Origin: Deltaproteobacteria bacterium | GTDB taxonomy: Bacteria; UBA10199; JADFYH01 | Reading direction: 5' to 3' | Length of the DNA: 47,940 nt | Assembly (NCBI GenBank): GCA_015233135.1 | Contig: JADFYH010000024.1 | Coordinates: 1-47,940, forward strand | Shown here: in pieces, positions 3,894 through 47,940 of the stretch | Layout of the letters: each line of letters opens with the position of its first letter | How positions within the stretch are numbered: the first letter of the stretch is position 1 | Position numbers and translations under genes: made by a program | The notes under the pieces: generated by a model | Told to the model about the DNA's origin: nothing | What the model saw: the letters and a program-made list of their open reading frames with translations, nothing else | Databases searched by the model: none

Positions 3894-4005
3894 GTTTCCC
3901 CCTCTTAAGCTAAGAGGGGGTTAGGGGGCGTTATGGTAATTGCCTACAAGTGCGCCATAACCCCTCCCAACCTCCCCTTAGCTTAAGGGGAGGAGTAGGG
4001 AAAAA
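3894..4005. repeat. GC-rich composite inverted repeat between rimM and trmD
   Basis: The left arm (3895-3936) and right arm (3954-4001) are imperfect inverted copies, and each has its own small palindrome: CCCTCTTAAGCTAAGAGGG on the left and CCCCTTAGCTTAAGGGG on the right. The outermost GTTTCCC pairs with GGGAAAAAC. This is the style of a dispersed REP/MITE-like repeat. It could also attenuate transcription within the operon. Confidence 0.7.
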
Positions 4006-11598: not shown

Positions 11599-11809
11599 AA
11601 CTTGAGTTCCGCAGATTTTAAGAATCATTTTTTGCTCATTCTTGGCAAGTCCCCACCTATAAAGCATTTCCCCTCTCCCCTTGAGGGAGAGGGTCAGGGT
11701 GAGGGGTATTTCTAGTGCACTCAGGATCACCCTCTCTCTGACTCTCTCCCCTCAAGGGAGAGAGGACTTTTCAGAGTGGCTTCTTACTAAAATCTGCGGA
11801 ACTCAAGTT
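11599..11809. repeat. MITE-like element with 22-bp perfect inverted ends
   Basis: Bases 11599-11620 and 11788-11809 are perfect 22-bp inverted copies (tip AACTTGAGTTCCGC). Inside is a second GC-rich inverted repeat: 11669-11706 faces 11726-11766, each arm with its own small palindrome around CCTTGAGG or CCTCAAGG. TTAAAAACTT occurs at both outer edges (11594-11603 and 11808-11817) and could be a target duplication. It lies upstream of the alpha-2-macroglobulin gene. No coding sequence is seen. Confidence 0.7.
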
Positions 11810-15642: not shown

Positions 15643-15674
15643 CACACTCTCCCGTCGAGGGAGAGGGTGGGGGA
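15643..15674. repeat. Partial GC-rich palindromic repeat
   Basis: CTCTCCC (15647-15653) pairs with GGGAGAG (15659-15665), followed by GGTGGGGG. This looks like one half of the repeat type found inside 11599-11809 and in the ABC1-kinase gene. It lies between the promoter element and pbpC. Confidence 0.5.
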
Positions 15675-34750: not shown

Positions 34751-36442
34751 ATGAAAACCAAGTCAAAACTTCGCTTTGTTAAGGCCTATGTCTGTGCCTT
34801 GCACCTCTTTGTTTCCTATTTTTTCCTTGGACTGCTCTATTGGACTATCCCTAGAAAACTTCATCAAAGGATCCTGCTCTGGGCCCATGCTAGAAACGCC
34901 CAACGCTTGTTAAAAACCATCCTTAAACTTCAGGGGCTCTTCATTAAGGTAGGTCAAACGATTAGTATTTTGACCCATTTTTTGCCCGAGGCCTACACAA
35001 AAAACCTGGAGCAATTGCAAGATGCAGTCCCCCCCTGCCCTTACGAAGAAATCGAACAACGTTTTTTAGAAGAATTCCAAAAAAAACCCGATGAGATTTT
35101 CAAGGAATTCAGCAAAACCCCACTGGCCAGCGCTTCTCTGGGACAAGTGCATGTGGCCTATTTGAAGGGGGGAGAGAAAGTAGCGGTCAAGGTCCAATAT
35201 CCGGATATCGAAACAATCGTGAATCAGGATCTGAAAATCTTAAGGCGGATTTTTTGGTTTTTAGATCTTTTCTTTCCTCATTACCAACTCAAACAAACCT
35301 TTGAGGAAATTTCTTCCATCGTGCTTCAGGAATTGAACTTTATCAATGAAGGCAAAAATCTGGAATGGGTGCAAAATAATTTGAAGGACGAAAAAGATTT
35401 TCTCTTTTCGAAAGTGTATTGGCAGTACAGCACCGATCGTATTCTCACTTTGCAATTCATGGAAGGCATTAAAATTTCCCAAGTAGACCAGCTAAAGCAA
35501 TTGGGAGTGAGCCCTAGCGAGATTGCAAAAAAACTCATCCATGCCTACTGTAAACAAATTTTTATAGATGGAGTTTATCATGCCGATCCACATCCTGGAA
35601 ATTTTTTGGTGAGTGTGGAAAACACCTCATCCCAACCCTCTCCTCCAAGGGGAGGGGGTAAGGGAGAGGGTGAAAATTTCAAAATCGTTTTCATGGATTT
35701 CGGCGCTACCGCCAGAATTTCGGATGCCATGCGTGCAGGAGCCGCAGTGCTCATTGAGGGAATCATTCGTCGTGACAATGAACTCATCCGAAAGGCGCTC
35801 AAAGATATGGGATTTATCGCCCATGAGGAAAATGAAGAAAGCTTCGATAAAATTGTCGATTTTTTTTATGATCGGCTAAAAGACATCAAGCTTGAACAAA
35901 TTAAAGATTTTAATTTGAATAATGTCGCTTCTCTACAAGATATAGTGGAATTCAAAAAATTGGATGTGAGTTTTTCAGAACTGCTCCACGCCTTTAATGT
36001 CCCCAAAGATTGGGCCTTGCTGGAACGGGCCATGATTCTACTGCTTGGCCTTTCTACTCATTTGGATCCAGATTTAAATCCGCTTTCCATTATTATTCCC
36101 TATGCAGAAAAATTTGTTTTGGGAAAAAATAAAACCTTAGGTGAATTTGTCATCGATACACTCAAGCAAAATGTACTGACTTACCTGCAGCTTCCCCAGG
36201 ATCTGGCTAAAATCCTCAAAAAAATGAACCGCGGTGAAATGAATTTTACCTCAAAAAAACAAAACTCGGATCTAAGAGCCATTCAAAATCATTTAAAAAA
36301 ATTGAACCTCTGTCTTTGTTTTTTTGGACTCCTTTTCGCGGGCACAATTTTAAAAGAAGAATACACCCAATACAGCCCTTACGCGTTCGGCCTTGCTGGC
36401 TTTGTTGCACTACTCTGGCTTAAGAATATTTTACTGGGTTGA
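34751..36442 (+). CDS. ABC1/UbiB-family atypical kinase
   Basis: The 563-residue protein has the family-specific KVGQTISIL (KxGQ), the alanine-rich loop ASASLGQVHVA, VAVKVQYP (ATP lysine), DGVYHADPHPGNFLV and the metal site DFGA. Two C-terminal membrane helices (about 515-560) anchor it. UbiB-type proteins support quinone biosynthesis or lipid handling. Between GNFLVSVEN and KIVFMDFGA about 16 residues (SSQPSPPRGGGKGEGE) are encoded by a palindromic repeat (35624-35673) at the catalytic loop, a place where the family tolerates variable length. The frame is intact. Confidence 0.9.
   Translation: MKTKSKLRFVKAYVCALHLFVSYFFLGLLYWTIPRKLHQRILLWAHARNAQRLLKTILKLQGLFIKVGQTISILTHFLPEAYTKNLEQLQDAVPPCPYEEIEQRFLEEFQKKPDEIFKEFSKTPLASASLGQVHVAYLKGGEKVAVKVQYPDIETIVNQDLKILRRIFWFLDLFFPHYQLKQTFEEISSIVLQELNFINEGKNLEWVQNNLKDEKDFLFSKVYWQYSTDRILTLQFMEGIKISQVDQLKQLGVSPSEIAKKLIHAYCKQIFIDGVYHADPHPGNFLVSVENTSSQPSPPRGGGKGEGENFKIVFMDFGATARISDAMRAGAAVLIEGIIRRDNELIRKALKDMGFIAHEENEESFDKIVDFFYDRLKDIKLEQIKDFNLNNVASLQDIVEFKKLDVSFSELLHAFNVPKDWALLERAMILLLGLSTHLDPDLNPLSIIIPYAEKFVLGKNKTLGEFVIDTLKQNVLTYLQLPQDLAKILKKMNRGEMNFTSKKQNSDLRAIQNHLKKLNLCLCFFGLLFAGTILKEEYTQYSPYAFGLAGFVALLWLKNILLG
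35624..35673. repeat. Palindromic repeat inserted in frame in the ABC1-kinase gene
   Basis: ACCCTCTCC pairs with the following GGAGGGGG and with GGGAGAGGGT around AAGG. The sequence belongs to the same GC-rich repeat type as 11669-11766 and 15643-15674. It adds a Pro/Gly-rich segment and keeps the reading frame. Confidence 0.7.
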
Positions 36443-47813: not shown

Positions 47814-47940
47814 TTGTCAGCGCGCATGACAGGGAGCCTGGAGTTCGCATGATAGGGCCCCACCTGTACGCATGATAGGGACCCGGTGGTTCGCAAGGAT
47901 AGGGACCCACTTTTTCCTCTAAAAAATAGCGACGGATCTT
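47814..47940 (+). mobile_element. Putative IS-element end (right copy of the 127-bp terminal inverted repeat)
   Basis: Exact inverted copy of 1-127, starting TTGTCAGCGCGCATGACAGG and containing units of the CGCATGATAGGGACCC type. The element would extend right of the window. It truncates brnT. The identity stops at base 47814 (base 128 on the other side differs). Confidence 0.55.

Follow-up and report, generated by a model that had tools for sequence, protein, structure and literature searches.

A TM-family palindrome carried in frame by an ABC1-family kinase gene in a deltaproteobacterial genome

INTRODUCTION

In the intrastrand-triplex motif (TM) of Escherichia coli, TMECO, the hairpin CCCTCTCCC-loop-GGGAGAGGG is joined by a 3-nt linker (TTA in type A, CCG in type B) to a third strand (GGGTGAGGG), and some type A and type B copies form inverted pairs (Holder et al. 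2015, PMC4666352). That paper describes the 23 TM copies of strain MG1655 as always intergenic, with no link to transposons, phages, or plasmids. Other palindromic repeats have been reported inside genes. Two reviews (PMC10969869, PMC2229807) describe Rickettsia palindromic elements (RPEs), multicopy palindromes of about 105-150 bp that lie in frame in conserved protein genes. GTAG/CGTC REPs located inside genes include in-frame copies and dimers, many of them in replication and repair genes, and intragenic REPs have been noted in uvrA of Opitutus terrae and Thioalkalivibrio (PMC3733652). ERIC, YPAL, and Correia-107 are short mobile repeats that have been found fused in frame to ORFs (PMC2229807). 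In the literature searched, for which journal coverage was partial, we found no earlier report of TM copies inside genes. In-frame palindromes are already known, and what is new here is that they come from another element family (TM) in another lineage.

We analyzed a 47,940-nt stretch of DNA, hereafter called the window (contig JADFYH010000024.1, Deltaproteobacteria bacterium), from a draft genome of 64 contigs that is 98.3% complete (G000 below). At Rfam gathering thresholds, the window contains one tRNA. The 127 nt at one end (positions 1-127) recur without a mismatch, in inverted orientation, at the other (47814-47940); both contain 23-nt tandem repeats and probably mark an assembly break at a repeat. 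A sequence-only reading of the window had reported that a palindromic repeat also present between genes lies in frame within a kinase gene.

RESULTS

Comparison with described repeat systems

Copies in this genome have the TM architecture of hairpin, 3-nt linker, and third strand, in both type A (TTA) and type B (CCG) forms, and they share with TMECO the arms (CCCTCTCC.../...GGAGAGGG), the third strand (GGGTGAGGG), and the occurrence of inverted pairs. The assignment to TM was made by sequence, and the folding that we computed is that of the hairpin. The location differs: the MG1655 copies are all described as intergenic, whereas 36 of 113 sampled insertion points here fell within ORFs and the window copy lies in a coding sequence. 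Like the RPEs, the element is a palindrome present in many copies, some of which have entered ORFs without shifting the frame, but RPEs are about 105-150 bp long and belong to Rickettsia, while the present element has a 46-nt core and occurs in another lineage; this contrast is one of length and lineage. ERIC, YPAL, and Correia-107 are larger units (about 107-168 bp) of other bacteria.

With the GTAG/CGTC REPs, our element shares in-frame intragenic copies, pairs, and occurrence in repair genes including uvrA. Under one alternative, the genome's Y1 transposase (locus L046) would move the palindrome as part of a RAYT/REP system. A single Y1_Tnp gene scored above the Pfam cut-off in this genome, and 38 of 46 genomes of the class had a match. 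However, no RAYT gene flanked by TM was found (a search of the 3.2-kb L046 locus turned up no TM-like site), the window copy has neither a GTAG nor a CGTC tag, and no such consensus appeared in the flanks of 87 full TM matches. TM and Y1 counts were also uncorrelated over the 46 genomes (Spearman 0.10, P = 0.50). RAYT mobilization, unsupported by either gene proximity or copy-number correlation, seems to us a rather improbable explanation.

An insert between the HPGN and DFG motifs of an ABC1-family kinase

The kinase gene and the features within it are as follows:

34751-36442, + strand: intact ABC1-family atypical kinase gene, 563 aa (PF03109, E = 4.7e-74; best fold match, COQ8A)
35585-35602, + strand: DPHPGN codons, residues 279-284 (no variation among the 15 proteins of the alignment)
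35624-35674, + strand: 17-codon insert that keeps the frame, TSSQPSPPRGGGKGEGE, residues 292-308 (T292-E308; from alignment with relatives and the model)
35625-35670, + strand: TM-family palindromic core, CCTCATCCC-AA-CCCTCTCC-TCCAA-GGGGAGGGGG-TAA-GGGAGAGGG (from sequence, consensus match, and folding)
35696-35707, + strand: DFGA codons, residues 316-319 (from alignment)

The ORF (34751-36442) stays open across the insert segment and has no internal stops. Because its match to the UbiB model TIGR01982 (E = 7.9e-79, 265.3 bits; NCBIfam) did not reach the equivalog cut-off of 487.55, we label the gene as ABC1 family, which its sequence makes a safe assignment, and withhold the UbiB function label. 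The top fold matches of the predicted model were COQ8A and mycobacterial ABC1 proteins. KxGQ, the Ala-rich loop, HPGN, and DFG are motifs of ABC1/UbiB atypical kinases, and the window gene has this motif set together with the PF03109 domain. In the alignment, KxGQ, the Ala-rich loop, Lys, HPGN, and DFG were all retained in the insert-bearing kinase; HPGN and the D, G, and A of DFGA were invariant in 15 of 15 proteins, with Y in place of F in some.

Relative to its class relatives (alignment with 14 of them), the gene carries a stop-free insert of 51 nt that lies, as the sequence-only reading had it, between the HPGN and DFG motifs, with DPHPGNFLVSVEN before and NFKIVFMDFGA after TSSQPSPPRGGGKGEGE. 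The span first given, 35624-35673, had the correct start and ended one base short of 35674. In the TM core, a hairpin at the center is flanked by two outer arms, one per side. We built an AlphaFold2 model on 15 sequences (mean pLDDT 74.3), in which the insert falls between strands 285-289 and 310-314 and residues 292-307 have pLDDT values < 50, as for a disordered loop. According to this model, the insert lengthens the hairpin turn that joins the HPGN strand to the DFG strand, outside the catalytic loop proper; modeling agreed with the loop character first proposed, while the placement in the catalytic loop had to be given up. When solved ABC1 structures were aligned to the single sequence, five of six alignments broke off immediately ahead of the insert, between residues 287 and 291, and the sixth reached 318.

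The insert is also predicted to fold as nucleic acid. Against dinucleotide shuffles, its folding z was -2.95 for the DNA + strand, -2.40 for the DNA - strand, and -3.63 for RNA, with a predicted RNA fold energy of -33.7 kcal/mol. The coding strand at 35649-35670 (+) contains four G-runs (GGGGAGGGGGTAAGGGAGAGGG), and judging by this sequence, a G-quadruplex is possible in the mRNA. Together with the stable triplex formed in vitro by E. coli TM (PMC4666352), these properties would suit a role for the nucleic acid itself: transcription or translation would be slowed between the kinase motifs by an mRNA hairpin or by the G-rich sequence of the coding strand. The element is not conserved at the ABC1 turn across the class, however, and its copies are spread over many unrelated genes, so we consider such a role very unlikely.

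The insert resembles a high-copy palindrome of the genome

We compared the window copy with a 35-nt TM consensus typed by hand from own-genome copies. In one orientation the two agreed at 28 of the 35 positions, with TAA as the linker and GGGAGAGGG as the third strand. Its best local TM score, obtained in the other orientation, was 44, compared with a best score of 26 and a mean of 19.2 among 300 codon-shuffled versions of the gene, and chance resemblance to TM was rejected on this basis. The pattern CCCTCTCCN2-20GGAGAGGG had 196 matches in the genome (nested double matches counted), and the reversed control had none. Within the window, TM scores rose clearly over background at 11.6-11.8 kb and 15.6 kb, both intergenic, and at the kinase insert. 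The palindromic repeats between ORFs (>=130 aa) of the window are the following:

11671-11764, no strand assigned: two further TM-family palindromes (consensus scan, ORF map)
15645-15667, no strand assigned: TM-family palindrome with one mismatch (consensus scan, ORF map)
3897-3994, no strand assigned: a further C/G-rich inverted-repeat pair, TCCCCCTCTTAAG... (repeat search, ORF map)

From its sequence, we identify the insert as a diverged copy of a high-copy palindrome of the TM family. The earlier description, in which a repeat found between genes recurs in frame in the kinase gene, is upheld by the score and by the other TM copies of the window.

The sampled stretches of G000 plus the window contained 87 full TM matches, 82 of which were 34 nt long; TTA was the linker in 32, TCA in 22, CCA in 9, and CCG in 8. 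Neither inspection by eye nor the flank profiles of these 87 matches revealed a clear target-site duplication. The profiles did show T-C before the element and T/G-rich, then A-rich bases after it, and these bases may be part of the element itself.

The same turn in relatives of the class

Among 46 genomes of the class, own genome included, 20 had a strong ABC1 match (E < 1e-90). Among the matches listed in a wider contig scan, the ABC1 relatives were distant, the best (43%) being from a Myxococcales MAG. TM core matches ranged from 0 to 71 in the other 45 genomes, and 31 of the 46, again counting our own, had at least one. Alignment of homologues, which had been suggested with the sequence-only reading, showed a TM-like element at the ABC1 turn in 3 of 20 orthologues (G000, G031, and G037) and none in 16; the turn of G021 was masked by Ns. 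In G031 the TM-like palindrome is broken up by a second palindrome, and in G037 there is a TM-like start at which the contig ends. At the turn, G013 has a short inverted repeat of another kind, with 8-nt arms. In family f10 the turn is occupied by a long loop of acidic character without TM, and turn length varies in the class. The refuting case named with the sequence-only reading, a Pro/Gly-rich segment in relatives that lack the repeat family, did not arise: of five orthologues whose genomes gave no TM core match, four (G001, G008, G013, and G042) lack any such segment, and the fifth, G021, has a part-masked turn. Elsewhere in the G031 ABC1 gene (locus L013, 1888-1983), a second insertion with the repetitive peptide RQAATWQAATRQAA lies just past the Ala-rich loop strand.

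The variable length of the turn, and the long loop of f10, would allow the Pro/Gly-rich segment to be an ordinary ancestral loop that is repeat-like by chance or through G/C-rich codon use. We give this almost no credence, given a score of 44 against 26 for the best of 300 codon shuffles, the absence of the segment from 16 of 20 orthologues, a G+C content of 0.60 in the insert vs. 0.41 in the whole kinase gene, and the TM elements that this genome carries in at least 25 further ORFs.

In an ABC1 tree computed with the loop removed, G031 and G037 paired (100/99) inside a clade (100/100) that also holds the TM-free G013, f8, and f15, while G000 grouped with f10 and f4 rows, both TM-free at the turn (100/99). 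Two independent TM insertions at this turn would be the simplest reading of these sequences, since a single ancestral insertion would require several losses.

TM copies inside other genes of the genome

To count TM copies in genes, we used 73 sources from the genome: 13 came from a set of 15 loci, two of which duplicated others, and the remaining 60 were stretches surrounding copies in the lists. The census is therefore a sample among the copies listed, with some listed copies outside it, and it excludes the window copy. Matches within 25 nt were joined and more distant pair members were kept separate. We excluded 13 duplicates, as well as any copy less than about 60 nt from the end of its source. 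A point was scored as inside an ORF when the open frame had at least 120 codons, with at least 60 on each side of the insertion point.

By this rule, 36 of the 113 sampled insertion points were in frame inside 25 ORFs, 12 were near an ORF edge, and 65 were in no ORF. Among the 77 points not inside ORFs, 17 were bordered on either side by long frames of the same strand, which could be interrupted genes or plain neighbors. Of the other 60, 11 had abutting frames on opposite strands, 28 had a frame on one side, and 21 had none. An NCBIfam match (E <=1e-10) was obtained for 21 of the 25 TM-bearing ORFs, leaving four without one. The families are UvrA, UvrC, MutL, MutY, ATP sulfurylase, AceE, Ddl, LeuRS, MetH, a TIGR03960/TIGR03936 radical SAM protein, a TIGR00275 flavoprotein, NagZ-like, ComEC, BioF, and HpnC plus HpnD, together with matches under the model's cut-off to HpnE, MacB-like, GMP_PMI-like, AmgK-like, and GvpN-like ATPase proteins and to an RNase G piece truncated by the locus end. 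The site was empty in 15 of 15 aligned relatives for ATP sulfurylase and in 18 of 18 for the second UvrA site; in the other 23 ORFs, insertion was deduced from the open frame and family match. Five forms recur among the insert peptides: PSPLRGEGQGE, PLPRGERAGVR, PHPNPLPQGER, LTLTLSPKGRG, and SPQPSPLKGEG. The kinase insert is real and is one of many in this genome, not an isolated event.

Three of the loci have further features. HpnC and HpnD form one 613-aa ORF (L250:1612-3450, G000:C20) with the TM insert in the HpnC part, and the adjoining HpnE also has one. In L245 (G000:C17:6800-15500, - strand), a frame is open over all 8.7 kb and has at least four TM insertion points, with no NCBIfam match at E 1e-10. 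The MutY ORF (L036, G000:C1, locus 398-2065) has, besides its TM insert, other stretches that by eye resemble a different repeat family (RETKDVRRKTKEVRRETG...SHLPSHLSRLTSH).

Under the same rule, 6 of 20 copies in G024 were in ORFs, but only three of the six matched a family. These three lie in two ORFs, one matching glutamate synthase and the other a kinase-like protein, each under the model cut-off. The G024 ORFs without a family match may be chance frames, and we give this count little weight.

Signs of selection and shared loops

TM copies are depleted from coding DNA, and most coding copies are in frame: at most 53 of the 113 sampled points lie in genes (the 36 in frame plus up to 17), against a coding share of 84% in the window by a simple ORF count. 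Two further comparisons gave weak signs of selection. The TTA linker, which places a TAG stop in one frame, was found in 6 of 36 full copies inside ORFs (window included) vs. 27 of 61 outside (P = 0.007), a signal weakened because the inside class is itself defined by an open frame. Frame f2 was used by none of 36 copies in ORFs although open in 34% of outside copies, but r2, the frame most often closed outside ORFs (open in 25%), was used seven times, which weakens frame avoidance in turn. For these two reasons, we do not take the avoidance of stops or of particular frames to prove selection.

Repair genes (UvrA, UvrC, MutL, and MutY) account for 4 of the 25 TM-bearing ORFs, which is unusual against an assumed background share of 2-5% (P = 0.001-0.03 under that assumption). 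At the first UvrA site, G000 has a TM inverted pair, and G012 (family f12) has an in-frame GTCATTCCCGCGAAGGCGGGAAT at the same loop. The GTCATTCCCGCGAAGGCGGGAAT pattern had 48 matches in G012 and none in G000, and G012 had no TM core matches; this fits loops taking whichever repeat is active in a genome, as far as sequence comparison can suggest. In the UvrA genes of G024 and G030 (L152 and L153), the first UvrA loop has long GGAACTCGGG-like or GGGTCACGGG-like repeats where G000 and G012 have palindromes.

The kinase appears to tolerate the insert

The sequence-only reading had left two outcomes, tolerance at a loop or an effect on activity, and had raised the question of a second intact gene copy. 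Searching the genome yielded no second full ABC1 copy; besides the one full match, there was one weak match of 82 residues. Because the ABC1 motifs survive and there is no second full copy in the genome, we read the insert as probably tolerated by the kinase, and alignment, distances, and model favor this outcome over the other.

Under that other outcome, the insert would impair or retune the kinase, with the gene heading for loss or changed in activity or partner binding. The ABC1 branch of G000 is the longest in the in-group of the tree (1.01, with others up to 0.61), which could reflect relaxed constraint. Simple distances of the G000 ABC1 protein to outgroups were 7-9% above those of f10, whereas its UvrA was slower than that of f10 and its ATP sulfurylase was mixed. 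A guanylate kinase bearing an RPE stayed active with altered substrate affinity, according to PMC2229807. Yet the ORF has no stops, KxGQ, the Ala-rich loop, Lys, HPGN, and DFG are in place, the gene is the sole full ABC1 match, and turn length also varies in TM-free relatives such as f10, all of which makes impairment or retuning unlikely in our judgment. Strong acceleration of the ABC1 gene, as suggested by the tree, was set aside given that simple distances were only 7-9% above f10.

DISCUSSION

We consider it very probable that a TM palindrome inserted into the ABC1 kinase gene and was kept in frame at the HPGN-DFG turn, under broad insertion and selection that purges gene-breaking copies. 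TM palindromes would insert broadly across the genome, and selection would then remove copies that break genes, so that mainly intergenic copies and in-frame copies at flexible loops persist. The kinase insert would have been retained because it is divisible into whole codons, has no stop in the frame used, and landed at the HPGN-DFG hairpin turn with no conserved residue lost. The result would be an added Pro/Gly-rich loop of 17 residues in a kinase that presumably still works.

A much more speculative extension, which we think has little chance of being correct, is that palindromes serve as a genome-wide source of translated Pro/Gly-rich linkers (in five of six frames), that repeat families compete for a few loops of housekeeping enzymes, and that hits in the repair proteins UvrA, UvrC, MutL, and MutY alter repair and feed back on genome instability.

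Translated palindromes are best known from Rickettsia, and here a different, very widespread repeat family lies inside core enzymes of another lineage. Peptides encoded by such repeats are to be expected within genuine genes when gene callers and HMMs are applied. The case lets one ask whether the repair-gene bias reported in PMC3733652 is real. Since relatives have empty sites, and one of them an unrelated repeat at a shared loop, it also becomes possible to study where in essential enzymes a loop will take up an insertion.
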